Virus record (IMG/VR): IMGVR_UViG_3300032223_001001 | Coordinates: 17,778-81,777 of that record | DNA length: 64,000 nt | Direction: 5' to 3' (one strand) | Source: a virus | Shown here: positions 10,076 to 57,108 of the stretch, in pieces | Numbering within the stretch: the stretch's first letter is position 1 | Layout: each line of letters opens with the position of its first letter | The notes under the pieces: generated by a model | The model's input: the letters and a program-made list of their open reading frames with translations, nothing else | Told to the model about the DNA's origin: nothing | The model's database searches: none | Made by a program: the position numbers and the translations under genes

Positions 10076-10089
10076 ATTTTTTTTAGTTT

Positions 10090-11694: not shown

Positions 11695-11719
11695 TTTTTT
11701 CTTAATTTTTATGTAAATC

Positions 11720-12667
11720 CTAAAAATCGTCCGTGAATGTTATTGACTCGTTCATTTTTGCCTTTTGATATTCAATGGTTCTTGACTCAAAAAAGTTCCC
11801 TTTTGTTTCAACGGCAATTTGTTCCATGAACTTAAACGGTTGTTCCACGTTAAATTCTTTTGAACACCCAAGTTTAACCAATAAACCATCAACAACGAAC
11901 TCCAAATATTGTTTCATTAAATTCTGGTTCATACCGATCATTGACACTGGTAATGACTCGGTGATAAACTCTTTTTCAATTTCCAATGCGGACAACAATA
12001 TTTCTTTAATTCGTTTTTCACTCGGTTTATTCACAATATGGTTATTCAATAAATGAATCGCAAAATCACAGTGAAGATTCTCGTCCTTAAATATTAAGGC
12101 ATTTGCATCACAAAGTCCACGCATTACACCTCTTGATTTTAACCAAAATATCGAACAAAACGACCCGGAGAAAAATATCCCCTCCACAGCCGCGAACGCA
12201 ACAAGACGTTCCTGGAATGTTGAATCATTAATCCAATTCAACGCCCAATTAGCCTTCTTCTGTACCGCTGGTAGTCGTTCAATCGCGTTAAAACATTCGT
12301 CCTTCTCGTTCGGATTACTTATATAAGTATCAATCAATAGAGAATACATCAACGAGTGGATATTTTCCATTGCTAACTGAAAACCATAGAAAAACTTCGC
12401 CTCAGGGTATTGTACCTCCTTTAAGAAATTTTCAGCTAAGTTTTCATTAACAATACCATCCGATGCCGCGAAAAATGATAATATATTCTTAATGAAATAT
12501 TGTTCATTCTCCGACAAATTTGGCCAATCACGAATATCATCCGTTAAATCAATTTCTTCTGCCGTCCAGAATGCCGCCTGGTGTTGTTGGTAATACTCCC
12601 AAATATCATTATATTGAATTGGAAATATTACAAAACGATTTGGATTTTCTGTTAAAATTTTTTCCAT
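11720..12667 (-). CDS. nrdB: Ribonucleotide reductase small subunit
   Basis: The 315-residue protein provides the diferric-tyrosyl radical for NrdA. The ligands are visible: Asp70 (AASDG), Glu101 and His104 ([10 protein letters not shown]), radical Tyr108, Glu162 (AVEG), and Glu196 with His199 (KDENLHCD). The C-terminus, ITFTDDF, matches the peptide that docks to NrdA. Length is slightly short but normal for phage NrdB. It lies 3 bases after the gp41 C-half stop and 25 bases before the nrdA start, so all are probably one transcript. No intein is present. Confidence 0.95.
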
Positions 12668-12670
12668 AAT

Positions 12671-13141
12671 TTATTCTGTTTTTTGTTTTTCTTTTCGTTT
12701 ATCCATTAATTCTCTAATGCGATCCTTATTTCGTTGTTCCTGTTTTTCTTCATGGCCCAAAAACGTCGTTGAGGTATCTGTATCAATGTCCAGCATTCCG
12801 TTGTCAAATTTACAATTTTCAAACACAATACCATCATCACCAATCCTGGATTTTGTTATTGCCATTGTCGCCAACTTCATTTCCTTTTGGGGTAAAGTCC
12901 TTGCGATTGTTAAGATAACGTGTCCAACTTGTGCCTTCTTAATCGATCCCCCCATTTGGTCGGTAGTTACCACTTCAGCGGAAATTGAAGAATTGTGTGT
13001 ATATACCCCATTCGCATAAAACATATGGGTACCTTCCACCGAAATATCTATAGTATCTTCCTCACCTACTAACTCAATTGATTCTATTTCATCTAAAATA
13101 AAATCGTCATCTGTTAAAATATGAAATTCATTTTCCATCAT
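12671..13141 (-). CDS. gp41: Replicative helicase gp41, C-half with split-intein C fragment
   Basis: This 156-codon gene encodes the last part of a DnaB/gp41-type helicase in trans. Residues 1-50 form the intein C fragment (DTIDISVEGTHMFYANGVYTHN). The extein then begins SSISAEVVTTDQMGGSIKKAQVGHVILTIART and carries the final RecA-core strands. The tail is charged (NKDRIRELMDKRKEKQKTE). Splicing to the N-half would give about 459 residues; T4 gp41 is 475. Start may be either of two adjacent ATGs. It overlaps the upstream small endonuclease gene by 14 bases. The intein resembles the published gp41-1 split intein (MFYAN...THN|SS). Confidence 0.92.
   Translation of the reverse strand: MMENEFHILTDDDFILDEIESIELVGEEDTIDISVEGTHMFYANGVYTHNSSISAEVVTTDQMGGSIKKAQVGHVILTIARTLPQKEMKLATMAITKSRIGDDGIVFENCKFDNGMLDIDTDTSTTFLGHEEKQEQRNKDRIRELMDKRKEKQKTE
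12992..13141 (-). other. Split gp41 intein, C fragment (50 aa)
   Basis: Block F (DTIDISVEGTHMFYANG) and block G (VYTHN) are followed by Ser, the extein nucleophile. The partner N fragment is at 13398-13670, with an endonuclease gene between them. Confidence 0.88.
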
Positions 13142-13388
13142 TCAAAAATTTAATACATTGTTCAACTACTTTTTCTTTATCATTGTAATAATCACGTTCC
13201 TTAACCCTTAATAAATTATAACCTTTTTTTATTAAATATTCATCACGTTTCTTATCTTTTTTTATTTGTTCCGGTCTGGAATGCCAATATTCCCCATCGA
13301 ACTCAATTATATTATTACCAAGTTTGAAGTCAACCTTGATAATTGTCATATTGTTTTCCCAAATATAAAAAGTTGGACTACAAGACAA
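13128..13388 (-). CDS. Small Vsr/DUF559-like endonuclease between the gp41 halves
   Basis: The frame encodes up to 86 residues from a TTG at 13388, or 73 from an ATG at 13349. Visible motifs are VDFKLGNNIIEFDGEYWH, then KKDKKRDEYLIKKGYNLLRVKERD. This is the core of a Vsr/MTH1-like PD-(D/E)xK fold (Asp, then Glu-x-Asp-Gly, then the Arg-rich helix and a strand ending LRV). It is much shorter than typical free-standing Vsr-like homing enzymes, so it may be trimmed. Location inside a fractured intein gene matches the arrangement described by Dassa and colleagues for phage split inteins. A homing role is inferred from that precedent. Confidence 0.72.
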   Translation of the reverse strand: MSCSPTFYIWENNMTIIKVDFKLGNNIIEFDGEYWHSRPEQIKKDKKRDEYLIKKGYNLLRVKERDYYNDKEKVVEQCIKFLNDGK

Positions 13389-17304: not shown

Positions 17305-17395
17305 TAAACTAGTACTTAAATGTAAGTATTTCGTAAATATCCGTTATTTAGACGGACAAGTTGTTTGAATTAACAACTGCCTAAGCCAGGCAACT
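17305..17395 (-). ncRNA. Candidate omega/guide RNA end of IS607 element 1
   Basis: The end of tnpB and the 65 bases after it form several short hairpins: TGCCT/AGGCA across the stop, GTTGTT/AACAAC, and CCGT/ACGG. TnpB families use an RNA from this end, with the guide read from the flanking DNA. Secondary structure is seen by eye only. Confidence 0.4.
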
Positions 17396-18533
17396 TTTTA
17401 TTTTTTTCGTCTTTTAGTTTAATACCGATCGGTTTGAATGTTCCGTTATAAACACGTTTAATGTTTATTGAACCATTTTCATCTCTAGGTAAACTAACAC
17501 CACACCAAACACAATTAAACACACGATCTTTAACTGTTAGATTGTGTTTAACGTGTTGACAACAACTACATGTTTTACTGGTATAACTTTCATTGACTTT
17601 TTCAAAAATCTTCCCACATTGTTTTGCTTTATATTCTAATAAAAACGTGAAAATACTTATTGCTGCGTTTGAATATGATCTACTAAAGTTTTTTTGTTTT
17701 TTAGTGTTATCACTTTCCATTAATTTCTTAACGTCAAACTTTCCAACAACAATGATATCTTCTTTAACTTGTTTTATATATTTTGTACTTTCTTTTTGCA
17801 CATAATCATACCTAGTATTTTTTAAACGTAAATGGGTTTTATTTAATTGTTTTTTAACTTTTTTACGTCTTTTACTAGTTAACTGTTTACTTGATAATGA
17901 TTTATTTAATTCAGCAATTCTAGCTTCATATTTTTTAATTAATTTGGTTGAAAATCTTTTAACTTCGTATCCATTAGAATCAACCATTAAACTTTTTAAC
18001 CCCAAATCACAACCAACAACATCGTTATTATATCTCACTAATAAATTTGGTATTGCATCACATGTAAATACCAAAAAATAATCGTCATTTTCTTTTTTAA
18101 GTTTTACCCCAGTGAAATCATTTGGGAATGTTTCAACTCCTTTAATACCATTTTTAATTTTCGGTAAATACACTAAACCATTCTTAATTCTAACATCTGT
18201 TTTAGCAAAAAAAATGGAACTAAAGTTATCATTGGTTTTATGTTTTGGAAATCCAGAACCATTAAAGAAATTCTTAAACGAAGCTGCCACTCTAAAAACA
18301 ATTTCTTGTAAAGACTTATTTGGAATGTCATTCCAACTAGTGTCTTCTTTTTTTAATAAAGTTAATTCTTGTTTCTGAACGTATTTATTTAATGTTTTTC
18401 CGGTACCTTGGTAATAATAAATGTATTGGTCAATACAAACATTATACAATGTTTTACATCGTCTTAACCAAAATTCAAACGTATTGAAATTTGTTTTGTT
18501 AATTATTAACTTTATTTTTTTAGCTTTTTTCAT
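17370..18533 (-). CDS. tnpB: TnpB RNA-guided nuclease, rearranged RuvC site
   Basis: The 387-residue TnpB has RuvC-I Asp176 (GCDLGLKSL), a zinc ribbon (Cys322, Cys325, Cys341, Cys344) and RuvC-III Asp351 (RDENGSINI). The usual RuvC-II Glu is replaced by Gly264 (IVVGKFDVKKL). A Glu at 315 (VNESYTSKTC) lies about 50 residues on, the position of the alternative catalytic Glu reported for Fanzor-related TnpBs. It overlaps tnpA by 14 bases. The activity is plausible but must use the alternative Glu. The DNA is more AT-rich than the tail genes. Confidence 0.9.
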   Translation of the reverse strand: MKKAKKIKLIINKTNFNTFEFWLRRCKTLYNVCIDQYIYYYQGTGKTLNKYVQKQELTLLKKEDTSWNDIPNKSLQEIVFRVAASFKNFFNGSGFPKHKTNDNFSSIFFAKTDVRIKNGLVYLPKIKNGIKGVETFPNDFTGVKLKKENDDYFLVFTCDAIPNLLVRYNNDVVGCDLGLKSLMVDSNGYEVKRFSTKLIKKYEARIAELNKSLSSKQLTSKRRKKVKKQLNKTHLRLKNTRYDYVQKESTKYIKQVKEDIIVVGKFDVKKLMESDNTKKQKNFSRSYSNAAISIFTFLLEYKAKQCGKIFEKVNESYTSKTCSCCQHVKHNLTVKDRVFNCVWCGVSLPRDENGSINIKRVYNGTFKPIGIKLKDEKNKKLPGLGSC

Positions 18534-19128
18534 CTTTAATAAAGTCTTTAATTTTATTTTTATACGTTCTTAAACCATATAATCTAGATGAAAAAACATG
18601 AATGATACTCATTAAATCATTAACCATTTCTTCTTGCGGTGATACCTTTTCATCATTAATAACAATTAATTCAACATTGTTTTCAATACATAATTCCTCG
18701 ATTAATTCAAAACCAAAACGAACTAATCTATCTTTGTGAGCTATAATTAGTTTTTTAATTTTATTTTTGGTTATTTCATTAACCAATTTAATAAAATTTT
18801 TTCTTTTATAATTTAATCCAGAACCAATATCACTATAAACTTCATCAATATGGATTTGGTTATTCAAACAATATTCTTCAATAAAACTTATTTGTGATTT
18901 AAGATCATCTTTTTGATTAAATGACGATACACGACAATATATAATTGTTTGTTTTTCATCAACAATTGAACTTTGGTTATTGATAAATTCCAAATATTGT
19001 TCGTGTGAATATTGTTTACGACCTTTTGGTGTGTACATGACTGGTTTGTAAATACCTTCGTTATCCCAACGCTGTAGAGTACGAACGTGTTTATTAATTA
19101 ATTTAGCAAATTTACCAATAGAATACAT
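18520..19128 (-). CDS. tnpA: IS607 serine recombinase TnpA
   Basis: The 202-residue protein has a MerR-type helix-turn-helix (YSIGKFAKLINKHVRTLQRW, residues 2-21) followed by a resolvase-type catalytic domain: YCRVSSFNQKDDLKSQ with the catalytic Ser, DIGSGLNYKR, and HKDRLVRFGFELIEELC. The MerR-resolvase fusion is the hallmark of IS607. It catalyses integration and excision. Sense TATTTATATATAAAG lies 20 bases upstream. The short TnpA here looks intact. Confidence 0.92.
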   Translation of the reverse strand: MYSIGKFAKLINKHVRTLQRWDNEGIYKPVMYTPKGRKQYSHEQYLEFINNQSSIVDEKQTIIYCRVSSFNQKDDLKSQISFIEEYCLNNQIHIDEVYSDIGSGLNYKRKNFIKLVNEITKNKIKKLIIAHKDRLVRFGFELIEELCIENNVELIVINDEKVSPQEEMVNDLMSIIHVFSSRLYGLRTYKNKIKDFIKDEKS

Positions 19129-21060: not shown

Positions 21061-21170
21061 TATTCAAAATTAAACATTTTGTTTTAATTTACTTCTACCC
21101 ACAAAAATGGGCTTCGCTCCTGTCACCAGGTCTTGGCCGTTTCGGTTTGAATCTTTTGAATTCACATTAT
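21061..21170 (-). ncRNA. Candidate omega/guide RNA end of IS607 element 2
   Basis: The last codons of tnpB carry hairpin-forming DNA (CCTGGTGACAGG; GCCCATTTTTGTGGGT), typical of RNA-overlapping TnpB ends. The guide would be read from the interrupted gene. By-eye folding only. Confidence 0.4.
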
Positions 21171-22617
21171 CCAACTGCCGTTTTTCAATTATTGCTCTAA
21201 CTTTTTTAGGATTCATTTTCAAGATAATTTCGTTATCATGACCACGACCCAAAATCATTTTAGCCGCATTATAACCGGATGGTACACCCTTGTTTGAACA
21301 ATGTTCATTTAAACAATAAAATAGATCATTCTTGCGTTCACCGAAGTGGTCACACGAACAACATACTTGTGATGTATATGCCGGATTTATTTCTTTTTTC
21401 TCAATAGAGTTTACGTTAAATTTGTAGTCCATACGTTCTCGAACCAAACCTTTTGTCCAAGTAGTTAACAATAATTTAACTTTTTTATTATATTTCTTAC
21501 CACCTTTAGATTGAAATGTTAAGTCCTCAATAAAAACCAATGTTGGTTTTTCTTCATCAATAAATTTATTGATTGCTGAATTTGTTATTTTCCTAACTTC
21601 TTCCTTAAGTGAATTTTGTTTTTTATTATATTTCTTTTTTCCTAAATTAAATTTATTTATATTATTAATTTTTTGTTGACAAGTTTTAATTTCTTCAGGA
21701 TTGTTTGAATTTTTTATTGTATTTTTTAATTCTTTAATTAAAACATGGTATGGTTGTCTTTTTTTGTTTTTTTCGGAAAAATGATTAGTATATGTTGTTA
21801 ATATTTTATTTAATCCTTCACCATATGAATTTTCAGATGAAGTGTCCAAGACATTTATAAAGTTTTTATCAACACCAATTTCATTTACATTAAATGTATT
21901 TTCTTTAACTTTAGGTTCAATTGTTTTATGTATTGAAAAAATATTTCTATCTGGATTATATTTAATTATTAAATTTCCTGTAAATCTATCTTTAGTGTTA
22001 ATCTTAATCGGAATTCGTTGACCTTTAACCAGACCCATAATTAAAAGATAATCACCTTTATAACTATACATTTCGTTATCAATCATCATTGACATACTTT
22101 TTTGTCTAGGTATTTCAGATTTTTTATTCCGTATAATTCTAGATAAAAACTTGTTTAGTTTTATTTTATCTAGATCGTCAAACTTCTTATCCAGTCCATT
22201 AACTGGTAAACAATTTAATACTTGATACAATAACGTATCACTTTTTAATATTGTGAATAAATAATGTTTTTCAACATCATTAAAATTTTCATTTTTAGAA
22301 ATTAATGGTCTTATTTTATTTTTAAGATTAGACCAATTAGATTTTATGTTCGGTATAGCACTTTCAATACTATTACGTACAAATCTTCTGTTTATTGACC
22401 AATCATCAATGAAACCCGAATTAGTCCATTCATTTCGAATATATTTTCTTGAATTTTTAATCAATAAAATTGACCCTACACCAGAATATCTAGAAAAGAT
22501 ATAATTCTTAACATTCACACATTTACCCATAATGAACAATAGTTCGTCAAGAAGATTTTTATCCTCAATAACACCATATTGTTTAACGGTTTTTTGATAT
22601 GTTGAATTATTTATCAT
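21070..22617 (-). CDS. tnpB: Long TnpB-family protein lacking the last RuvC Asp
   Basis: The 515-residue TnpB relative is longer than most. RuvC-I Asp250 (GVDKNF) and RuvC-II Glu364 (VFIEDL) are present, and the zinc ribbon is visible (Cys419, Cys422, Cys435, Cys440). The third motif reads PSGYNAAKMI: the expected Asp two residues before Asn is Gly448. Loss of this residue should abolish cleavage by a standard RuvC site. It may therefore be a nuclease-dead derivative, or use another residue. The C-terminal tail probably overlaps its own guide RNA. It is only distantly similar to the first TnpB, so the two elements arrived separately. Confidence 0.86.
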   Translation of the reverse strand: MINNSTYQKTVKQYGVIEDKNLLDELLFIMGKCVNVKNYIFSRYSGVGSILLIKNSRKYIRNEWTNSGFIDDWSINRRFVRNSIESAIPNIKSNWSNLKNKIRPLISKNENFNDVEKHYLFTILKSDTLLYQVLNCLPVNGLDKKFDDLDKIKLNKFLSRIIRNKKSEIPRQKSMSMMIDNEMYSYKGDYLLIMGLVKGQRIPIKINTKDRFTGNLIIKYNPDRNIFSIHKTIEPKVKENTFNVNEIGVDKNFINVLDTSSENSYGEGLNKILTTYTNHFSEKNKKRQPYHVLIKELKNTIKNSNNPEEIKTCQQKINNINKFNLGKKKYNKKQNSLKEEVRKITNSAINKFIDEEKPTLVFIEDLTFQSKGGKKYNKKVKLLLTTWTKGLVRERMDYKFNVNSIEKKEINPAYTSQVCCSCDHFGERKNDLFYCLNEHCSNKGVPSGYNAAKMILGRGHDNEIILKMNPKKVRAIIEKRQLDNVNSKDSNRNGQDLVTGAKPIFVGRSKLKQNV

Positions 22618-23209
22618 CTAATATCTGTTTAATTTTATCAATTGAATTTTTATTTTGATGACTTCTACTACCATATAATTTTGATGAAAACACAGTGATA
22701 ATTTCAACAACATCATTCACAAATTCAGATTGACTATCTAAATGATGGTTATCGTTAATTATTTCAATTTCAACATTCTTCAATTCACACAAAAAATAAA
22801 TTAATTCATAACCAAAACGAATTAAACGATCTCTATTAGTTAACACAATTCGTTCAACTTCATTATTATCAATCATTTTGATTAATTCTAACAAACCTTT
22901 TTTCTTGTAGTTAATGCCAGATCCAAAATCTTGGATTAATGTGAAATTATATCCTTTAGACGAACAATAAAGACTTAACATTTCAACTTGTCGTTCCAAG
23001 TCTTTATTCTGTCCTCGAGTACTAACTCTAGCGTACGCTATTGTTTTTCTTGTGTTGGTTTGATTTAAGTTTTTTATGAATTGATTTTCATCATATCGTC
23101 TATGACCACCTTCGGTTCTAAAAGAAGTTATTTTTCCTTCACGTTCCCATCTACGCAGTGTACCTGCGGCAATATTTAATTTTTTTGATAATTGTGAAAT
23201 CGTTAACAT
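22607..23209 (-). CDS. tnpA: IS607 serine recombinase TnpA, second copy
   Basis: The 200-residue protein has a MerR-type N-terminus (LTISQLSKKLNIAAGTLRRWE) and a resolvase domain: YARVSTRGQNKDLERQ with the catalytic Ser, DFGSGINYKKKG, and NRDRLIRFGYELIYFLC. It is the same family as the copy at 19128 but clearly divergent. Overlap with tnpB gives a coupled two-gene element. The recombinase looks intact, so the element may still move. Confidence 0.92.
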   Translation of the reverse strand: MLTISQLSKKLNIAAGTLRRWEREGKITSFRTEGGHRRYDENQFIKNLNQTNTRKTIAYARVSTRGQNKDLERQVEMLSLYCSSKGYNFTLIQDFGSGINYKKKGLLELIKMIDNNEVERIVLTNRDRLIRFGYELIYFLCELKNVEIEIINDNHHLDSQSEFVNDVVEIITVFSSKLYGSRSHQNKNSIDKIKQILDDK

Positions 23210-47983: not shown

Positions 47984-48757
47984 TTAAACATAAATATCAC
48001 CTTCGACGTTTCCTCCTTTATCTTGAATCATTTTACGGATTTCGTCTTTTGAGTATTGTTTGGATAATGGGGTTTTGGATAAAATAAGATCACCCCCAAC
48101 TATTAAATTGTCAGGAAGAGTTGTGATTGAAGTGTTGGATAAAAAAATACCACCCTCAACCGTTAAATTATCAGGAAGAGTTGTGATTGAAGTTTTGGAT
48201 AAATAAAGATCCCCCCCAAGCGTTAAACTATCTGGAAGGGTGGTGATTGGGGTGTTGAATAAATTAAGACCACCCCCAACCGTTAAATTATCTGGAAGGG
48301 TGGTGATTGAAGTTTTGGATAAATCAAGATAACCCCCAACCGTTAAATTATCTGGAAGGGTTGTGATTGAAGTATTGGTTAAATCAAGATTACCCCCAAC
48401 CGTTAAATTGTCAGGAAGGGTGGTGATTGAAGTTTTGGATAAATTAAGACCACCTCCAACTATTAAATTATCAGGAATGGAGGTGATTGGGACACCACGT
48501 AAATCAAGACTACGTCCAATCGTTAAATTGTTAGGAAGAGTTGTGATTGAAGTTTTGGATAGATCAAGATCCCCCCCAACCGTTAAACCATTAGGAAGAG
48601 TTGTGATTGAAGTTTTGGATAAATAAAGATCACCTTTAACATTTAAATCATCCTTGGTTATTGATCCTGGATCATATAATAGTTTGACTTTAATAGGTGT
48701 CTTATATTCTGGTCTATTGGATTCGATAAAATTAAATAAATTGGATATGTTAGTCAT
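47984..48757 (-). CDS. Leucine-rich-repeat protein A
   Basis: The 257-residue protein begins MTNISNLFNFIESNRPEYKT and then has about ten 20-residue repeats of the form LDLSKTSITTLPDNLTVGGx. Each repeat has beta-strand Leu/Ile positions and an Asn/Leu-Pro core, like a leucine-rich solenoid with short repeats. The C-terminus is LSKQYSKDEIRKMIQDKGG. The sister gene at 48780 has the same ends but a different repeat number. Such solenoids often bind proteins, but no target is indicated. Confidence 0.85.
   Translation of the reverse strand: MTNISNLFNFIESNRPEYKTPIKVKLLYDPGSITKDDLNVKGDLYLSKTSITTLPNGLTVGGDLDLSKTSITTLPNNLTIGRSLDLRGVPITSIPDNLIVGGGLNLSKTSITTLPDNLTVGGNLDLTNTSITTLPDNLTVGGYLDLSKTSITTLPDNLTVGGGLNLFNTPITTLPDSLTLGGDLYLSKTSITTLPDNLTVEGGIFLSNTSITTLPDNLIVGGDLILSKTPLSKQYSKDEIRKMIQDKGGNVEGDIYV
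48045..48644 (-). repeat. 60-bp tandem repeats in LRR gene A
   Basis: About ten copies of a 60-bp unit, in exact register. Differences concentrate in the codons of the variable strand (LSKTSIT, LTNTSIT, LFNTPIT, LRGVPIT). Confidence 0.85.
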
Positions 48758-48779
48758 GTTAAATTATTGGATTAAAGTT

Positions 48780-49673
48780 TTAAACATAAAAACCACGTTC
48801 GACGTTTCCTCCTTTATCTTGAATCATTTTACGAATTTCATCTTCCGAGTATTGTTTGGATAATGGGGTATGGGATAAACTAAGACCACCCCCGACCCTT
48901 AAATTATCTGGAAGGGTGGTGATTGATGATCTATCTAAAAAAAGAAAACCCCCGACCGTTAAATTGTCAGGAAGGGAAGTGATTGAAGTATTGGTTAAAT
49001 TAAGATCACCCCCAACCGTTAAATTATCTGGAATGGAGGTGATTGAAGTTTTGGATAAATCAAGATAACCCCCAACCGTTAAATTGTCAGGAATGGAGGT
49101 GATTGGGGTACCACGTAAATCAAGACTACGTCCAATCGTTAAATTGTTAGGAAGAGTGGTGATTGATGATCTATCTAAATAAAGATTACCCCCAACCGTT
49201 AAATTATCTGGAAGAGTTGTGATTGGGACACCACGTAAATCAAGATTACCCCCAACCGTTAAATTATCTGGAAGAGTTGTGATTGGGACACCACGTAAAT
49301 CAAGATTACCCCCAACCGTTAAATTATCTGGAAGGGTTGTGATTGAAGTTTTGGATAAATAAAGACCACCTCCAACCGTTAAATTATCTGGAAGGGTGGT
49401 GATTGGGGTGTAAAGTAAATCAAGATCACCCCCAACCGTTAAATTGTCAGGAAGAGTTGTGATTGGGGTATTGGATAAATAAAGATAACCCCCAACCGTT
49501 AAATTATCAGGAAGAGTTGTGATTGGGACACCACGTAAATCAAGATTACCTTTAATATTTAAGTCATCCTCGGTTATTGATCTTGGATCATGTAATAGTT
49601 TGAATTTAAGAGGTACCTTATATTCTGGTCTATTGGATTCGATAAAATTAAATAAATTGGATATGTTAGTCAT
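48780..49673 (-). CDS. Leucine-rich-repeat protein B
   Basis: The real start is ATG 49673 (MTNISNLFNFIESNRPEYKV), 1 base after the stop of the upstream gene. It has about 11 repeats of 20 residues (NLDLRGVPITTLPDNLTVGG) and the same C-terminal LSKQYSEDEIRKMIQDKGG. The open frame extends further upstream to 49841, but that part is out-of-frame coding of the upstream gene. Its start motif is coupled to the WCTA-type gene, so the two proteins probably work together. 297 residues. Confidence 0.85.
   Translation of the reverse strand: MTNISNLFNFIESNRPEYKVPLKFKLLHDPRSITEDDLNIKGNLDLRGVPITTLPDNLTVGGYLYLSNTPITTLPDNLTVGGDLDLLYTPITTLPDNLTVGGGLYLSKTSITTLPDNLTVGGNLDLRGVPITTLPDNLTVGGNLDLRGVPITTLPDNLTVGGNLYLDRSSITTLPNNLTIGRSLDLRGTPITSIPDNLTVGGYLDLSKTSITSIPDNLTVGGDLNLTNTSITSLPDNLTVGGFLFLDRSSITTLPDNLRVGGGLSLSHTPLSKQYSEDEIRKMIQDKGGNVERGFYV
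48900..49559 (-). repeat. 60-bp tandem repeats in LRR gene B
   Basis: Eleven 60-bp units in register. The two at 49201-49260 and 49261-49320 are identical over all 60 bases. This points to recent duplication or gene conversion. Confidence 0.88.
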
Positions 49674-49674
49674 G

Positions 49675-50403
49675 TTAAATAATTGGATTGTCATCTTTAT
49701 CCATGAATTGGTTAGTTTCATATGAAAATTGGTATTTTTCATTAGAACCAGGTTTGATAAATATGAATAACGGACCTTGTGAAATATGACGATCAAAATG
49801 ACCTCTAGTTTTCCCGGTTGCGGTACACCACTGAGTTCCACTTCCTAATTCACAGGAAGTACCATACAAATCATTTCTTCCTTGTGGTAATTCATAGACA
49901 TCAAAACCATCAACTGACCCCATATAAAATTCTTTATATTTATCTGAACGTGACACTCCTTTTTGTTGGGACGGATCGTTCTTTTCTTCGTCAGCAAGTT
50001 CAATTGATTTTTTAATAAACGTTATCACGTCTTTAGCTGACTTATACGAATTAATATTAGATGAAGGATACCTTTTCTTTTGCCTAGAGAAAATAGAAAA
50101 ATAGTTCTTAAATTTGTATATATCTTCCCCTTTTATTATTTTGTCAGCAACTTTTTTAGCTAACCATGTCGCATATGCGGATTTATTCCCCACAGCATTT
50201 ATTATTTCTTCAAAATCATCTTGAGATATTTTGTCTGTATCAACAAAATGTGATTTAAGATCTTCTAACGATACTTCTAATAATAATGTTGTCAATAATT
50301 GTTGATCCGATGTTGATTTTTGTTCAGATATAACTTTTCCTGGTTCATATCCGAACATAAAACGTATTCTTTGAATGTCTTCGACTATTAATTTCTTATT
50401 CAT
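49675..50403 (-). CDS. WCTA-domain protein with a capsid-targeting-like leader
   Basis: The 242-residue protein begins MNKKLIVEDIQRIRFMFGYE and reaches KVISEQ (Ile25-Ser-Glu27). After a helical middle (WLAKKVADKIIKGEDIYKFK), the last 60 residues contain GTSCELGSGTQWCTATGKTRGHF, a motif found in phage proteins linked to repeat proteins. The C-terminal stop lies 1 base from LRR protein B. Enzyme activity is not shown; the conserved Trp-Cys-Thr-Ala block could be a binding or catalytic site. The leader suggests packaging (see findings). Confidence 0.75.
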   Translation of the reverse strand: MNKKLIVEDIQRIRFMFGYEPGKVISEQKSTSDQQLLTTLLLEVSLEDLKSHFVDTDKISQDDFEEIINAVGNKSAYATWLAKKVADKIIKGEDIYKFKNYFSIFSRQKKRYPSSNINSYKSAKDVITFIKKSIELADEEKNDPSQQKGVSRSDKYKEFYMGSVDGFDVYELPQGRNDLYGTSCELGSGTQWCTATGKTRGHFDRHISQGPLFIFIKPGSNEKYQFSYETNQFMDKDDNPII

Positions 50404-50421
50404 ACTAAATTATATTAAAAA

Positions 50422-50721
50422 TTAATCCCATTTTTTCACTTTGTAAATTTTACGACTTCTTAATTCATCTATACCTGTATTTCTGAAGAAATTGTTCATT
50501 AACGAAGATAATTCAGTTCTAATTTGATTTATTGTTTGTGAATCAATCTCACCATTATAATAACTTTCCTCAATAACTTGTTCAAAAAAAAGAAGATCTC
50601 GTAATATTGTTCCAACATTTTCTAACTCAGGATATTCGTTATCCTCACCTTCTTGTTCACTAATAACACGTTTAACTAATCTAGTTAAATCACGTTCCGT
50701 TAATCTTATTGTTTTTTTCAT
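50422..50721 (-). CDS. Small leader-type protein 1
   Basis: The 99-residue protein begins MKKTIRLTERDLTRLVKRVI and then SEQ at 21-23. The next 70 residues are acidic and helical (VGTILRDLLFFEQVIEESYY) with a basic end. It shares its first 22 residues and its 50-bp upstream region with the next gene upstream, while the bodies are unrelated. The leader may direct packaging; the body's role is unknown. Confidence 0.75.
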   Translation of the reverse strand: MKKTIRLTERDLTRLVKRVISEQEGEDNEYPELENVGTILRDLLFFEQVIEESYYNGEIDSQTINQIRTELSSLMNNFFRNTGIDELRSRKIYKVKKWD

Positions 50722-50738
50722 AATTTTTAATTTTATTT

Positions 50739-50745
50739 ATAAATA
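50739..50745 (-). promoter_or_regulatory. Duplicated TATTTAT promoter region, copy 1
   Basis: Sense strand AATATATTTATAAATAAAAT, about 17 bases before the ATG. The surrounding 45 bases are repeated almost exactly before the gene at 50765. Confidence 0.5.
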
Positions 50746-50764
50746 TATTGTAAATAGAAAAGAA

Positions 50765-51169
50765 TTAATCATTCCCTTCCCCATATGTATCATTCATTTC
50801 ATAAATCCAATCGACCGGATTGTATTTACCATCAATAATCCAATCAACAATTGCCAAAATATAATCTTCTCTATCATGTATATCCTCCATCATATATGGT
50901 TCTTCGATAAAAATATCCGATACAAGATTATGTAATGTTTCTTCATCCCAATTAAAACTATCAATGATAGATTCAACTAAATCAAACGTAATTTCTTCAT
51001 CTTGAAATATTTCTTTAACTATATCTAACCCAAATATTCTAATACCCTCTTTAGCACCTAAAGCATTAACAACCTTAATAATGTTTTCAGTATTATTTTT
51101 TTGTTCACTAACAACACGTTTAACTAACCTAACCAAATCACGTTCTGTTAATCTTATTGTTTTTTTCAT
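50765..51169 (-). CDS. Small leader-type protein 2
   Basis: The 134-residue protein begins MKKTIRLTERDLVRLVKRVV then SEQ at 21-23. The body is acidic and helical (TFDLVESIIDSFNWDEETLH; YILAIVDWIIDGKYNPVDWI), with a strongly negative charge. It differs from the neighbour after the leader, so leader and promoter were copied and the body swapped. No known family. Confidence 0.75.
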   Translation of the reverse strand: MKKTIRLTERDLVRLVKRVVSEQKNNTENIIKVVNALGAKEGIRIFGLDIVKEIFQDEEITFDLVESIIDSFNWDEETLHNLVSDIFIEEPYMMEDIHDREDYILAIVDWIIDGKYNPVDWIYEMNDTYGEGND

Positions 51170-51186
51170 AATTTTTAATTTTATTT

Positions 51187-51193
51187 ATAAATA
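51187..51193 (-). promoter_or_regulatory. Duplicated TATTTAT promoter region, copy 2
   Basis: Nearly the same 45 bases as the region before 50721, including AATATATTTATAAATA. Part of the duplicated cassette. Confidence 0.5.
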
Positions 51194-51227
51194 TATTGTA
51201 AATAGAAAAGATTTAATTCAAATCTAT

Positions 51228-51671
51228 TCAAATTATAGGTTGTTCCCAAATTGAAGACATTGAATATATATACAAAAAGGGTGTTAGTTCACTCAAATTA
51301 TAGGTTGTTGTCAACCACTCCTTTATAATTTCTTCAATTTTAGAGTATTTATAATTCATAACACCACCAAAAAATGACCAGATTCGGTTTTTATTGATGT
51401 GACAATGACCATTTATTGAGCACTGACCTTTTGTACAATAAAAAAATAAAGGAAGATTATCATTATCAACATAATATATTTTATCATCTTTCTCAACCGG
51501 TTTTAAGTTATTGAATTGATCTAGAAATGACAATGGATTATCAATATATGCTTGTTTAATAATTTCATCGCCAAACAGTTCTCTAGCTTGAGGTAAACCC
51601 AGTTTTTCAACTGCTAATCTAATCTTATTATTCAGTTGTTCGTTTTGTTGTTCCGTTATAATGATTTTCAT
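51228..51671 (-). CDS. MKIIITEQQ leader-type protein with a Cys cluster
   Basis: The 147-residue protein begins MKIIITEQQNEQLNNKIRLA. The body has a Cys-rich patch (FYCTKGQCSINGHCHINKNR: five Cys/His in 20 residues), which could bind zinc. The C-terminus is EEIIKEWLTTTYNLSELTPF. It is the full-length form of the deleted copy at 47339. Its start is divergent from the SNF2 gene, with a 50-bp shared promoter gap. Confidence 0.75.
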   Translation of the reverse strand: MKIIITEQQNEQLNNKIRLAVEKLGLPQARELFGDEIIKQAYIDNPLSFLDQFNNLKPVEKDDKIYYVDNDNLPLFFYCTKGQCSINGHCHINKNRIWSFFGGVMNYKYSKIEEIIKEWLTTTYNLSELTPFLYIYSMSSIWEQPII

Positions 51672-51675
51672 ATTG

Positions 51676-51682
51676 ATAAATA
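51676..51682 (-). promoter_or_regulatory. TATTTAT element before the MKIIITEQQ gene
   Basis: Sense strand AATATTTATCAATATGAAAATC, with the ATG 5 bases after the box. Exactly the spacing used at 59.45 and 42.58 kb. Confidence 0.55.
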
Positions 51683-51721
51683 TTATATTAGTTATTATAT
51701 TTTATTTATAATCACAATATT

Positions 51722-54613
51722 TTGGATAATAAAGAAGTCGAAGTTATTGAATCAAAAGCCTTATCCCTCCTTGAAAAATATGAAGGGGCGAATAACTACA
51801 TCATAAAGTTAAAACAAAAAAAGGAATCCAACAAACATTTTATTCCAACTCGATCACAATGTGACTATATTATCAATTATTCCAACACGACCCCAAAAAT
51901 AGCAAAAAAATGGGTTGAGTTAGATACATACTTCGCACAAAAATTCTCGGAAGATAAGTTATTACCAAAAGTTCCAGAAAATATATGGATTGAAAAATTA
52001 TTGGTCGAGAAGGATAAGTCTTACCATATTTGGGGTAAATTCTTTTCCGGTGACACCAATCATGATTTATGGTTACCAAAAACTGCGTTAATAAAAACTC
52101 ATACCACCGAGAAGGTTGAAATTGATTATTCCAAATATTCTAATCGACCCCCACTGGAACATCAAAAGGTTGCGATTGAGAAATTGGTGGGGACAAAAAA
52201 GTTTATTTTAGCGGATTCGATGGGGGTGGGTAAAGCACTTAAAATTGATACACTAATATTTACACCGACCGGAACCAAGAGATTTGGTGACTTAAAGGTG
52301 GGTGATAAGGTAATCGGTTCGAATGGAAAATCATGTAACGTTATTGGAGTGTACCCCCAAGGAATTAAAGATATTTATAAAATCACGTTTAACGATGGGT
52401 TTAGTATTGAATGTTGTAAAGAACATTTATGGACTGTCTCATCATGTAGTTCTAGTCAAAACGCTAAAAATAGGGAAAATAGATATATTACATTAAGTGT
52501 TGAGCAAATGCTTGACGAAAATTTAGTTTTGGAACAAAAGGGTACCGGATGGAATGAAAAGAGACCATATAAATTCAAAACTTATTATAAAGTTAAAAAT
52601 GGTGATTCAAAATGGCAGATTCCAATTGTAAAACCTATTGAGTTCGAAAATAACGATGTATTACCTATTGACCCTTATTTATTGGGACTTCTTTTGGGGG
52701 ATGGTGGTATTAGTACAAAATCAATTAATTTCACAACAATTGATGATGAATTGTTGGATCGTATGAAAATGGTATTACCTGAAAATATAAAAATAGTTAA
52801 TAATGGGAAATTAAATTATCGTTTAAGTAAAATTGAAGGTGTAAAAAATCCCCTAATTCAAGACTTAAAAAAATTAAATTTAATGGGGACAAAATCCCAT
52901 ACCAAATTAATTCCCGATGTTTACAAATATTCAAGTATTGAAAATAGATTGTCAATTTTACAAGGGTTGATGGATACTGACGGATGTTGTTTAATTAGTA
53001 AAAAAAATAAAGATACCGATTTTAAAGGTACACAATATTCCACATCATCCAAACAATTATGTGATGATGTTGTTGAAATCGTTCATTCGTTAGGCGGTAT
53101 CGCTCGAGTTAGTTCTAAAATCCCATCTTATACTCATAAAGGGGTTAAATTAAAAGGTAAATTATCTTATAGGGTGAATATTAAGTTACCCGAAGGTTTT
53201 AACCCATTTAGATTGAAAAGAAAGGCGGAGTTATATAATGAACCAAAAAAATATAGGGTTGGTAGATATATTAAAAATATTGAACCTTGTGGTCAATCTG
53301 AAACTCTTTGTATCGCTGTTGATTCCCCCGATAAATTATATGTTGTTGAACATGGGATTGTAACTCATAATACAACCTCAGCGGCGATTGCGGCATTAGA
53401 GACCGGTGTTAAAAAGATTTTAATTATTTGCCCATCGTCATTAAAACTGAACTGGAAGAAGGAGTTAGAACATTATACCAATAGATCGATATATATTGCC
53501 GAAGGTAAAAAATTTTCATTGGAACATGATATAGTTATTGTAAATTATGATATTCTTAAGAATTTTTACGACTTAAATGACAAGGAAAATTCATTAATAA
53601 CAAAAGCGGGATTTGATTTAATCATAATAGATGAGTCGCATTTTTTATCTAACCCCCAAGCTACCAGAACCAAGATTGTTAATAGTTTCGCCAAAAATGT
53701 TAAATATCTTTGGTTATTAACGGGAACACCAATGACCTCAAGACCGATGAATTATTTCAATTTATTATCATTGATTGAAAGTCCTGTTGCCGCAAACTGG
53801 ATGGCATACGCAATTCGTTATTGTGAAGGTTATCAATTTTCGGTTGGTAAAAAGAAAATATGGAATACATCTGGAGCGTCCAATTTGGATGAATTAAGGG
53901 AACGAACATCAAAACAATTTTTAAGAAGATTAAAAGAAGATGTATTGGATTTGCCCGAGAAGATTATTACACCCGTTTATCTTGAATTGAAATCAAAAGA
54001 ATATGAAGAGTTGGTTGGGGAATATTATGATTGGTATAATAAGTCAGAAGAATCAAAATCATTAACCATTCAGTTTACCAAATTAATGAAGGTTAGACAA
54101 GTGATTGCAAATGAAAAGATTAAACATACCATTGAACTTGCCGAAAATATAATTGTACAAGAAAAGAAGGTGATTATTTTCACCAACTTTACAAATACGT
54201 TACAACAAATTTACCAACACTTCGGTAAAAAGGCTGTTTTTATTGATGGTTCATGTTCAACGGTTCAACGACAATATGCGGTTGACCAATTTCAAGAAAA
54301 TGATAACGTGGTTGTCTTTGTTGGAAATCTTAAGGCAGCTGGTGCCGGTATCACATTAACTGCGGCTGAAGCGTGTATCATGAATGATTTGTCTTTTGTA
54401 CCTTCTGATCACCAACAAGCGGAAGATCGTGCCTATAGATACGGTCAAAAGAATTGCGTTTCCATTTATTATCCATTGTTCCACAACACAATTGATGGTG
54501 TTATATATGATATGTTAATCAATAAAAAGAATATCATTGATACTGTTATGGGGGATAATATCAACACGGGTGATGTTGTTGAAGAAATCATGCGTAGAAT
54601 TAATAATATTTAA
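51722..54613 (+). CDS. SNF2-family ATPase with a class-3-like LAGLIDADG intein
   Basis: The 963-codon product contains a SMARCAL1-like SNF2 ATPase. Walker A (SMGVGK, 166-171) is interrupted by a 379-residue intein (172-550), after which TTSAAIAALE completes it. Other helicase motifs follow: IIIDESHFL (motif II), LLTGTPM (III), and near the C-terminus GAGITLTAAEACIMNDLSFV and QQAEDRAYRYGQ (VI). Spliced length is about 584 residues. The start is a TTG at 51722; no ATG lies upstream in frame before the divergent gene. In phages such proteins may remodel forks, as UvsW-type helicases do. Confidence 0.92.
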   Translation: MDNKEVEVIESKALSLLEKYEGANNYIIKLKQKKESNKHFIPTRSQCDYIINYSNTTPKIAKKWVELDTYFAQKFSEDKLLPKVPENIWIEKLLVEKDKSYHIWGKFFSGDTNHDLWLPKTALIKTHTTEKVEIDYSKYSNRPPLEHQKVAIEKLVGTKKFILADSMGVGKALKIDTLIFTPTGTKRFGDLKVGDKVIGSNGKSCNVIGVYPQGIKDIYKITFNDGFSIECCKEHLWTVSSCSSSQNAKNRENRYITLSVEQMLDENLVLEQKGTGWNEKRPYKFKTYYKVKNGDSKWQIPIVKPIEFENNDVLPIDPYLLGLLLGDGGISTKSINFTTIDDELLDRMKMVLPENIKIVNNGKLNYRLSKIEGVKNPLIQDLKKLNLMGTKSHTKLIPDVYKYSSIENRLSILQGLMDTDGCCLISKKNKDTDFKGTQYSTSSKQLCDDVVEIVHSLGGIARVSSKIPSYTHKGVKLKGKLSYRVNIKLPEGFNPFRLKRKAELYNEPKKYRVGRYIKNIEPCGQSETLCIAVDSPDKLYVVEHGIVTHNTTSAAIAALETGVKKILIICPSSLKLNWKKELEHYTNRSIYIAEGKKFSLEHDIVIVNYDILKNFYDLNDKENSLITKAGFDLIIIDESHFLSNPQATRTKIVNSFAKNVKYLWLLTGTPMTSRPMNYFNLLSLIESPVAANWMAYAIRYCEGYQFSVGKKKIWNTSGASNLDELRERTSKQFLRRLKEDVLDLPEKIITPVYLELKSKEYEELVGEYYDWYNKSEESKSLTIQFTKLMKVRQVIANEKIKHTIELAENIIVQEKKVIIFTNFTNTLQQIYQHFGKKAVFIDGSCSTVQRQYAVDQFQENDNVVVFVGNLKAAGAGITLTAAEACIMNDLSFVPSDHQQAEDRAYRYGQKNCVSIYYPLFHNTIDGVIYDMLINKKNIIDTVMGDNINTGDVVEEIMRRINNI
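52235..53371 (+). other. Class-3-like intein in the SNF2 Walker A (379 aa)
   Basis: Starts at Ala172 (ALKIDTLIFTPTGTKRFGD) and ends VTHN before Thr. Trp237 (EHLW), Cys530 (LCIAV) and Thr548 (THN) match the class 3 W-C-T pattern, with no N-terminal nucleophile. Two intact LAGLIDADG blocks (YLLGLLLGDGGIS; LQGLMDTDGCC) imply an active homing endonuclease. Confidence 0.88.
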
Positions 54614-54624
54614 TATATTTACGA

Positions 54625-54631
54625 TATTTAT
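54625..54631 (+). promoter_or_regulatory. TATTTAT element before nuclease-like gene 1
   Basis: Plus strand GATATTTATATAAAAATACT, 19 bases before ATG 54650. The same words, followed by ACTATATCCAATGGG, precede the second paralogue. Confidence 0.5.
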
Positions 54632-54649
54632 ATAAAAATACTATATCCA

Positions 54650-55834
54650 ATGGGCAAATTTATAATAGAAGAATCGGAAAAAAAAAGAATATTATCATTA
54701 TATAAGAATTTCATTAATGAAGATTTAAACAATGATAAGGAAGGTGAAACTCCAATTATAACCTACTCAAACGCATCACATAAACCAGAATATCATTATG
54801 TTTATTTTAATGATGTTAAGGGTAATTTACCATCTAAAGGTCAGATTAAATTAGTTAATATCCGTAGACCGAAATCAACACGTAAACGTGAAGATGATAT
54901 TATAATTGACGTTAATAAGTTTACCAACGCCACTAATCCTAGTAGTTATAAAATTAGTGATCGTGAACCCGAAGTTAAAAATATAAAATCTTTTGGTGAC
55001 ACTAAAGAAAAAGTTGTAAACACAATAGGTCCAAATATTATTAATAATAAATATAAAGAAACCATATTTAGATCATTAAAAGATATTTATGGTGGTAATT
55101 CTAAAACTTGGTCAAATGAACCAGGTAGAGGCCCTAGAGGTCAAGGAGGTGTTATAAATATTTACACTCTTAACGATTATTTATTGGATAAAGGGCTGGA
55201 ACCAACTGAAGGTGGTGAATGGTCGGTACTTAATTATTTTGACACCAACCTTCAGCTTAAAGAAGCGATTTTAAAGAAGTTTAAAGAATTTAATGGTAAT
55301 AAACCAATAAGTACCATGGAAGAGTTGGATAAATGGTGTAGTTGGATTTATGAACATAAAGACAATCTATTTTTCAAAGACAAAAATGTATTAAAAAAAT
55401 TATCCGATATAAATTTTGGAAGTATATATCATGGGGTTTTTCTAAACGAAAAAAAAGCGTATGATTATATTTCTGATCTAATTTCAGGAAATGAAAATTT
55501 ATCTATTGTGACATATAAACCAGGTTCAGAAATAGACCGAAAAGGGGTAGATTTTACAGTAATTAATAAAACAAAAGACCCTGAAATGGGTATAAACCAT
55601 TTTCAAGCAAAACCTTTCCACGGATTATCTAAACGGGGTGACGTTTATACCGTATATTCTCACAACGTTAGATATGTTATAAAAAAAGATGTGAAATATT
55701 ATATATTTACATCACATCAACAAGAACAAATAGTAATATTCGAAGATAAAACAGATGGGATTAAACCTTTTGATAATTATGTTGAGTTTAATTACCCCCC
55801 AATAAGTCCTCAAGATTTATTAAAACAACTTTAA
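54650..55834 (+). CDS. Leader-type PD-(D/E)xK nuclease-like protein 1
   Basis: The 394-residue protein begins MGKFIIEESEKKRILSLYKN then FINED at 21-25. The C-terminal half carries Glu267 (LNEKKAYDY), Asp301 (RKGVDF) and Gln319-x-Lys321 (HFQAKPF). This order matches the PD-(D/E)xK nuclease fold with a Gln in place of the second acid, as in several known families. The middle contains GGEWSVLNYFDTN. It is one of two paralogues; identity between them is spread over the full length. A role as packaged nuclease is inferred from the leader, not shown. Confidence 0.78.
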   Translation: MGKFIIEESEKKRILSLYKNFINEDLNNDKEGETPIITYSNASHKPEYHYVYFNDVKGNLPSKGQIKLVNIRRPKSTRKREDDIIIDVNKFTNATNPSSYKISDREPEVKNIKSFGDTKEKVVNTIGPNIINNKYKETIFRSLKDIYGGNSKTWSNEPGRGPRGQGGVINIYTLNDYLLDKGLEPTEGGEWSVLNYFDTNLQLKEAILKKFKEFNGNKPISTMEELDKWCSWIYEHKDNLFFKDKNVLKKLSDINFGSIYHGVFLNEKKAYDYISDLISGNENLSIVTYKPGSEIDRKGVDFTVINKTKDPEMGINHFQAKPFHGLSKRGDVYTVYSHNVRYVIKKDVKYYIFTSHQQEQIVIFEDKTDGIKPFDNYVEFNYPPISPQDLLKQL

Positions 55835-55871
55835 CCCTAATTATTAAACGATAATTAACGACCAATGAAGA

Positions 55872-55878
55872 TATTTAT
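55872..55878 (+). promoter_or_regulatory. TATTTAT element before nuclease-like gene 2
   Basis: Plus strand AGATATTTATATTAAAATAC, 18 bases before the ATG. It copies the region before gene 1, so the promoter was duplicated with the gene. Confidence 0.5.
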
Positions 55879-55896
55879 ATTAAAATACTATATCCA

Positions 55897-57108
55897 ATGG
55901 GTAAATTTATAATAACTGAATCGGAAAAAACAAGAATATTATCATTACATAAAAAATTGATTAGTGAAAATCTAGAAAATGATGCTGTTATATTAACATA
56001 CACTAAATTAAACCTAGGTAAATACGACCATAATCAAGTTTATTTTAATAACGTTAAAATGGGTAATGTTGCCGATTATAATGAAATTATGGATATTCTT
56101 AAACAATTAAAGGAATCCGGTGAATTAGACGGAATAACCCTTAAATTGAAATCAACATTAGGTGAAGACCCAGGATATAAAATAGAGTACGAACAACTAC
56201 CAACAAACCCAGATAATTTTGGGAAATTATCAATACCAGTTAAAATTGACGACGATATTAAAACGCTACCAGCGTACAAATTATTCATTAATGACGAAAA
56301 ACAACAAACACCAGTTAAATTTTTAACAAAAGAAAAAATTGATGGATTTTATAAAAAAGTTGTTCGTGATTGTCTAAAATCAATTTATGGTGATACCGAA
56401 CATTGGGTTGAACGAGGATACGGAAATAAAAAACGTTTTGGTGTGGTTAACGTTAAATCAATAAATGATTTAATGCCAGAAGATTTAAGAAATCGTAGTA
56501 AAAGTGAGGGAAGTGATTGGTCAATCATCAATTATTTTGACACCAACCCAGGAATTCGTAAAATGATATTGGACTTATTTCAAAAAGAATCAAAACTTAA
56601 AGTCGAAGAATCCGAAGAAAACTTAAAAAAATGGGGTGAATGGATTGAAAATAATAAAGAAAAATTATTTAAGGATGGAACAATTTTTGAACAATTAGTT
56701 GATCGCAATTTTAATAGTTATTTAACCGGTCTTAAAAATGAAGAAAAAGCATTCAAGTATGTTGAAGATAAATTAACAGGTGATTTTATTATGGGGGGGA
56801 TTAACCTACCAGGTTCACCAGAAGATATACGAGGAATTGACTTCTCAACGATTAACAAACAAACGAATAAAGAATTTTATTTCCAAGCAAAACCATTAAA
56901 AACTGTAATAAAAGATAAAGGTGAATATATCGTTCAATCTTATAAGATATACTATTTAACATCCACACCAGTTGATTATTTTATATTTACGTCACACTCA
57001 AGTCCAGGAATAATTTGTTTTAAGAAATTAGATGGTCAATTTAGAGTGCTTGATGACTTAACAATTGTATTCAACTACCCCCCAGTATTTTGGGATCCAA
57101 ATTATTAA
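55897..57108 (+). CDS. Leader-type PD-(D/E)xK nuclease-like protein 2
   Basis: The 403-residue protein begins MGKFIITESEKTRILSLHKK then LISEN at 21-25. Candidate catalytic residues are Glu282 or Glu283 (KNEEKAFKY), Asp315 (IRGIDF) and Gln330-x-Lys332 (YFQAKPL). The central segment GSDWSIINYFDTNPGI matches the first paralogue. N-terminal third is diverged, so the two copies may act on different targets. It is followed at 14 bases by the neck-protein gene. Confidence 0.78.
   Translation: MGKFIITESEKTRILSLHKKLISENLENDAVILTYTKLNLGKYDHNQVYFNNVKMGNVADYNEIMDILKQLKESGELDGITLKLKSTLGEDPGYKIEYEQLPTNPDNFGKLSIPVKIDDDIKTLPAYKLFINDEKQQTPVKFLTKEKIDGFYKKVVRDCLKSIYGDTEHWVERGYGNKKRFGVVNVKSINDLMPEDLRNRSKSEGSDWSIINYFDTNPGIRKMILDLFQKESKLKVEESEENLKKWGEWIENNKEKLFKDGTIFEQLVDRNFNSYLTGLKNEEKAFKYVEDKLTGDFIMGGINLPGSPEDIRGIDFSTINKQTNKEFYFQAKPLKTVIKDKGEYIVQSYKIYYLTSTPVDYFIFTSHSSPGIICFKKLDGQFRVLDDLTIVFNYPPVFWDPNY

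Follow-up and report, generated by a model that had tools for sequence, protein, structure and literature searches.

Leader-bearing genes of the window

The stretch of DNA analysed here, referred to as the window, covers 64 kb of an uncultured virus record of 81,777 bases (IMG/VR IMGVR_UViG_3300032223_001001) and contains five genes whose products begin with short N-terminal leaders resembling the capsid-targeting sequences (CTS) of phage T4. All five are open reading frames (ORFs) with ATG starts and, as an earlier note on this DNA had described, carry an (I/V)-x-E tripeptide at residues 20-27. The same note assumed one common leader; instead, the genes carry three non-homologous families (a slash marks the predicted cleavage point throughout). 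Leader 1 is found in two neighbouring genes of the reverse strand, 50422-50721 (99 aa) and 50765-51169 (134 aa), where it reads MKKTIRLTERDLTRLVKRVISE/Q (50656-50721) and MKKTIRLTERDLVRLVKRVVSE/Q (51104-51169), with predicted sites I20-S-E22/Q and V20-S-E22/Q and E-values of 1.2e-15 and 3.6e-14 in a hidden Markov model (HMM) search of their own record, respectively. Leader 3, MNKKLIVEDIQRIRFMFGYEPGKVISE/Q (50323-50403), precedes the adjacent reverse-strand gene 49675-50403 (242 aa), in which alignment and ORF scanning revealed a C-terminal 'GSGTQWCTA' domain; its site is I25-S-E27/Q, and its relatives read EEL..MKYL..Y..G.[VI]ISE/Q. Leader 2 occurs on the forward strand in 54650-55834 (394 aa) and 55897-57108 (403 aa), as MGKFIIEESEKKRILSLYKNFINE/D (54650-54721) and MGKFIITESEKTRILSLHKKLISE/N (55897-55968), and the predicted sites, I22-N-E24/D and I22-S-E24/N, respectively, rely on the site statistics of the leader-2 family given below.

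The view that the proteins behind the leaders are unrelated held for 50422-50721 and 50765-51169 and failed for 54650-55834 and 55897-57108, because the latter are full-length paralogues (38% identical). The first pair does combine a common promoter and leader with different bodies: their DNA is 94% identical from -48 to +69 and 39% identical over the next 51 bases. Searches of the five bodies against Pfam and PHROGs returned only weak, sub-threshold matches and no function, with no family above cut-off for the body of 50422-50721.

A promoter-like TATTTAT box lies 24 bases before the starts of 50422-50721 (50739-50745, reverse strand) and 50765-51169 (51187-51193, reverse strand), and 25 bases before those of 54650-55834 (54625-54631, forward strand) and 55897-57108 (55872-55878, forward strand); 49675-50403 has none at this distance. 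In the same genome the box is also located upstream of tail genes, among them the sheath gene, and in relatives it lies upstream of the scaffold gene. Upstream of leader-1 genes it stands mostly at 20-25 bases, and within the upstream 70 bases it was present in 89% of leader-1 genes with an intergenic upstream region versus 45.5% of controls (p 6e-26). The box probably serves as a late promoter, although genes other than structural ones have it too.

Distribution and boundaries of the leaders

Leader 1 was sought in IMG/VR with the back-translated pattern RLTExDLxRxVKxV, which ends at residue 19, and leader 3 with EELxxMKYLxxYxxG, so that in both cases the residues of the site lie outside the pattern. 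The leader-1 pattern occurred in at least 119 stretches of uncultured viruses, against approximately 0.2 expected by chance; further proteins with this leader exist well beyond the window. The following counts refer to the matches listed, and the true total may be larger. A single ATG was located exactly five codons before the R in 115 of 139 matches, and all 119 distinct proteins had Glu at residue 22 and I, L, V or M at residue 20, a combination ([ILVM]xE) with a background of 1.4% in the protein bodies. Conservation drops away at residues 23-24, and the bodies that follow fell into 85 unrelated BLAST clusters among 115 distinct proteins. Position 21 was most often N or K (37 each), which makes I-N-E frequent among the leader tripeptides too. 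When all compared loci were searched with a leader-1 HMM, 232 proteins were recovered, 226 of which had the site exactly at residues 20-22, followed mainly by Q (90), E (33), S (28), N (26) or D (18). A lone I-x-E near an N-terminus is common; what carries weight is that the site keeps its position and that conservation breaks off sharply.

The leader-1 pattern matched only twice in 257 Gb of bacterial and archaeal genomes, and in no real gene; both matches were rejected as chance, since each is out of frame with a bacterial gene and interrupted by a stop codon, and leader 1 is accordingly viral. A tblastn search with the bare leaders against GenBank phages gave no matches.

The other two families behaved alike. 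The leader-3 pattern was found in 36 stretches encoding 27 distinct proteins, all of which had [IV]SE/Q at the same place in front of different bodies. For leader 2, defined by ITExEKxRILxLH and a variable linker, [ILVM]xE was present within 16 residues of [LM][HY] in 48 of 51 distinct proteins (background 10.8%, p ~6e-43). Three unlike leader families thus all terminate in an [IV]-x-E-type site.

Exchange of leaders was observed in relatives, whose loci are labelled L plus a number. One body family follows leader 1 in L074 but leader 2 in L232, with the switch at the Glu (VIQE/QSEHVKNLYKSW and LLIE/ASEHTENLYKSW, respectively; in longer form VIQE/QSEHVKNLYKSWANKRSGNPE and LLIE/ASEHTENLYKSWSNKKSGNPE). 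The 'GSGTQWCTA' domain stands behind leader 3 in 49675-50403, and related domains stand behind leader 1 in L074 and leader 2 in L232. In another body family, RYMFFSNLEQ, the N-terminal part as far as the Glu exists in four or more different versions.

Several further N-termini and leader-like segments were recorded. Internal leader copies ending in I-x-E occur in L106:4346-5194, L158:12172-13467 and L093:9865-11316, as if two tagged units had been fused. The N-terminus MKIIITEQQ is found in the window at 51228-51671 (reverse strand), and the form MK[IYF][IL]I[TS]ExQ recurs at the start of numerous unrelated ORFs in relatives, in most cases with no I-x-E further along. As T4 Alt begins with MELITE, the early ITE could be a site in its own right. 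A short N-terminus, MNLQETIRRVLREE, precedes neighbouring different bodies in L102 (8133-8501, 8501-8821 and 8821-9297, reverse strand), L090 and L107, and is possibly a minimal leader of helix and site only. Lastly, a leader-like helix, QLTDIIRRVIREN, lies at residue 212, near the C-terminus of L165:1310-1987 (reverse strand), which is encoded close to the capsid gene.

Viruses carrying the leaders and their head genes

The leader had been regarded as a property of this region, and it proved to belong to a whole phage clade. Among 45 leader-bearing records of at least 66 kb, 30 encode a T4-type S77 prohead protease (PF03420) and 27 a gp23 capsid protein. The small reverse-strand gene between portal and protease in these relatives codes for ribosomal protein S21 (bS21), which is the hallmark of the bS21-encoding Bacteroidetes myoviruses, for which Bacteroidetes hosts are predicted (PMC9723584). 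The tail sheath of the window is 64-68% identical to the sheaths of leader records bearing the protease and gp23, so the window belongs to this clade and the head block lies outside the fragment. The bS21-encoding Bacteroidetes myoviruses are most likely the clade in question. When records were chosen by capsid protein and not by leader, leader 1 was present in 13 of 17 fragments; the seven other T4-like or huge phages searched, T4 itself and the cultured Flavobacterium phage immuto among them, had none. The number of leader-1 genes per record ranges from 1 to 17, and they cluster together, 53% lying within 3 kb of another versus 10.5% at random.

Head proteins of the clade carry the same type of site. 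The propeptide of the major capsid protein (MCP) ends in LYENQAS[FH]LINE/A, with I-N-E in 61 of 63 sequences, the scaffold has a conserved L-I-E/S close to its C-terminal end (67 of 70), and the N-terminus of the protease shows I-x-E/S or I-x-E/N in most rows of the alignment as judged by eye. An I-x-E motif is therefore common to the MCP, the scaffold, the protease and the leader ends, and its position at the processing points of capsid protein, scaffold and protease follows the T4 rule (PMC9026906).

Leader 1 also resembles a segment of the scaffold, EIxxLVKESLxEQ, which ranked in the top 2% of 1,836 proteins in likeness to the leader-1 helix (median shuffle P 0.007). In a 13-residue log-odds scan the scaffolds fell short of the highest places (ranks 35-1231 of 2516), so the resemblance is only suggestive; it hints that leader 1 mimics this segment.

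Proteins behind the leaders

The majority of leader-tagged bodies match no known family. Those that do include peptidoglycan-active proteins, namely a lysozyme (L119:11942-12700), LysM and PG_binding_1 proteins and an L,D-transpeptidase/Tlde1 (L219:7327-8142); a zincin-like HExxH sequence was noticed by eye in L081, and PADLOC gave isolated weak matches only. In a survey of approximately 256 leader proteins for cytoplasmic phage enzymes, no replication or nucleotide-metabolism enzyme was recognised, the exceptions being one match to the ParB C-terminal domain and one homing-nuclease ORF. The latter, in L093, was the one examined among the homing-nuclease matches of leader proteins, and it was set aside, as its homing-nuclease domain lies upstream of the internal leader.

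The two leader-2 bodies of the window are probably PD-(D/E)XK nucleases, judging from modelling and comparison. Pfam gave no match for either, and seven homologues share an invariant D315...Q330-x-K332 (D...QxKP). In the AlphaFold2 model of 55897-57108 the C-terminal part is confident, and its best match in the PDB is the PD-(D/E)XK homing enzyme I-Ssp6803I (E 0.012, probability 1.0, TM-score to target 0.48), with R.SwaI also among the top structural matches. Homologues of this protein are encoded between the protease and scaffold genes in two relatives (L151:7105-8061 and L164:6850-7851).

Elsewhere in the window, an SNF2-type helicase (51722-54613) is broken by an intein-like stretch with Hint and LAGLIDADG matches, and ribonucleotide-reductase-like genes (8378-13388) are apparently split by intein-like ends (VHNC, THNS) and accompanied by a small nuclease-like ORF. 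Two IS607-type-like pairs, each a MerR-like serine recombinase beside a TnpB-like ORF, occupy 17370-19128 and 21070-23209, and two genes of tandem 'LTVGGDLDLxxTxITTLPDN' repeats (DUF5649-like) lie at 47984-49841.

A putative system for loading proteins into the phage head

The modular leaders, their exact end at the Glu, their exchange between bodies, the identity of the clade, and the protease and I-x-E sites of relatives, all read from sequence, point to the leaders as removable capsid-targeting sequences, whose bodies would be loaded into the head, freed by the protease and injected with the DNA; we place the probability of this at about 0.74. The earlier note had likewise proposed a leader cassette, and its capsid-targeting-like leader and gp21-type site agree with the fixed Glu, the exchange and the S77 protease and gp23 of relatives; a single leader family does not. 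As we infer the process, core binding would come first: the basic, amphipathic N-terminal leader would bind the assembling prohead core, and the protein would be enclosed in the head. The S77 prohead protease would then cut after the Glu of [ILV]-x-E, as the site suggests, releasing the body. By analogy with T4, the mature body would remain with the packaged DNA and enter the host at infection, where it may act as an effector. Leader and promoter would together form a portable cassette that has become attached to a wide range of unrelated bodies, so that each phage holds its own stock of cargo.

A bolder and more tentative version, which we hold to be possible though rather less probable than not, is that of an open loading code: the leaders would be interchangeable, the commonest imitating the scaffold segment EIxxLVKESLxEQ, which ends in a protease-type site, and any body so tagged would be co-assembled, cut and injected.

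Among known systems the closest is that of T4. There, a CTS of 10 residues is enough for a protein to be packaged and processed, and this sequence is all that the diverse internal proteins have in common (PMC9026906, PMC3012670); foreign proteins are packaged when given only the CTS (PMC9026906), and both IPI and IPIII work for the phage inside the host (PMC3012670, PMC9391042). IPI, IPII, IPIII and Alt, whose CTS is cut by gp21, similarly combine a short N-terminal leader ending in (L/I)-x-E with unrelated bodies (PMC9026906, PMC9958956, PMC3012670). The leader clade shares with T4 an S77-type prohead protease, a gp23-type capsid and leader genes that often lie off the head block. It differs in that its leaders, known from sequence alone, are 22-27 residues long and of at least three families in one genome, and in that up to 17 leader-1 genes occur per record, compared with a handful of T4 internal proteins. 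The ejection proteins of phiKZ and SPN3US also lose an N-terminal propeptide at an x-x-E site, and two paralogues, gp53 and gp54, are identical over their first 15 residues; however, the motif in this system is A-X-E (S/A/G/T-X-E in relatives), the propeptides are mostly longer than 100 residues, and a leader common to many unrelated proteins is not reported in the available part of that work (PMC5694885). In P1, the N-terminal 30 residues of DarB suffice to bring a foreign protein into the capsid, but the Dar proteins share no common leader by BLAST and depend on another protease and capsid system (PMC9024508). The bS21-encoding Bacteroidetes myoviruses have the same head block, with the reverse-strand bS21 gene between portal and protease, and the accessible main text on them, supplements excluded, mentions no leader (PMC9723584). 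Neither the leader strings nor the system was found described in the literature, supplements and subscription papers lying outside the scope of that search.

Several observations weigh against head loading and injection. The PF03420 search gave no prohead protease anywhere in the 82-kb record; the protease gene had been expected outside the window, and it is missing from the record because this is a fragment without the head-gene block. Within 6 kb of the MCP gene, leader-1 genes are no more frequent than by chance (4 of 84 versus 6.1 expected), and proximity to head genes was consequently dropped as support. The residue after the cut is mostly Q, E, S, N or D in the leaders and A, S or T in the MCP. 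The leader-1 HMM had no matches in T4, and there is no detectable homology to the T4 CTS. Several bodies act on peptidoglycan and could be lysis proteins. As for the positions of the genes, those of T4 internal proteins are likewise partly remote from the head genes.

Part of this evidence bears on two alternatives, each of which we consider unlikely. The leaders might target the prohead core with bodies that help to assemble the head, as core or scaffold components, instead of acting as injected effectors; gp67 and gp68 are such helpers in T4. The resemblance of the leader-1 helix to EIxxLVKESLxEQ would fit, as would the location of two leader-1 genes and of the PD-(D/E)XK-like homologues between protease and scaffold in some relatives, but most leader genes are remote from the head block, the 85 unrelated body clusters are patchily present, and lysozyme, L,D-transpeptidase and nuclease-like folds look like accessory cargo. 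The other alternative regards the leader as a cleavable or docking signal for a different destination, such as the tail, the membrane or a replication compartment, where it would be processed by some other protease or left intact. The clustering of leader genes with one another, often far from head genes, agrees with such a destination, and so do the bodies that bind peptidoglycan and a preference after the cut that is unlike that of the MCP. Against it, the leader site is the same as in the MCP, scaffold and protease of the clade, all three leader families end in it, and records without head genes are mostly fragments.

It is far less probable that the peptide itself is of no consequence. In one such account the 5' end is conserved as a signal for translation or expression, for instance on ribosomes modified by the phage bS21, and the peptide is incidental; in another the leader is only a recombination hot spot, where promoter and first codons spread by duplication and the peptide has no role. 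The former could draw on the joint conservation of promoter and leader in 50422-50721 and 50765-51169, on the bS21 encoded by these phages (PMC9723584) and on codon usage that is restricted at a small number of residues (R6, V16); the latter on the DNA-level duplication of promoter and leader in both this pair and 54650-55834 and 55897-57108. At most positions, however, synonymous codon entropy in leader 1 is close to that of the bodies (1.69 and 1.72 bits for T8, 1.41 and 1.49 for V19, 1.24 and 1.26 for I20, 1.78 and 1.55 for R18, respectively), indicating that selection acts on the peptide and ruling out conservation at the nucleotide level. Moreover, three unlike peptides have the same end, and across relatives synonymous sites have diverged while the peptide and the Glu are fixed.

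The leader system is real and widespread and, on present evidence from sequence comparison, appears to be similar to the T4 CTS in function; it is found in a new clade, comprises several families of leader and serves a far larger cargo. A tag of 22-27 residues with a fixed end would mark candidate injected proteins from sequence alone, and phage proteins of this kind are hard to predict otherwise, their bodies being unlike anything known. The tag is usable for uncultured giant phages, here a clade from lakes of which few members, if any, are in culture, and every tagged body can be considered a candidate for an early effector directed against host defence or used in takeover. The leaders may also serve for packaging chosen proteins into phage heads, and they allow core binding by scaffold mimicry to be tested as the mechanism of the leader. 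Should the open loading code be true, the clade would possess a large, fast-changing injected proteome that could be read from metagenomes.

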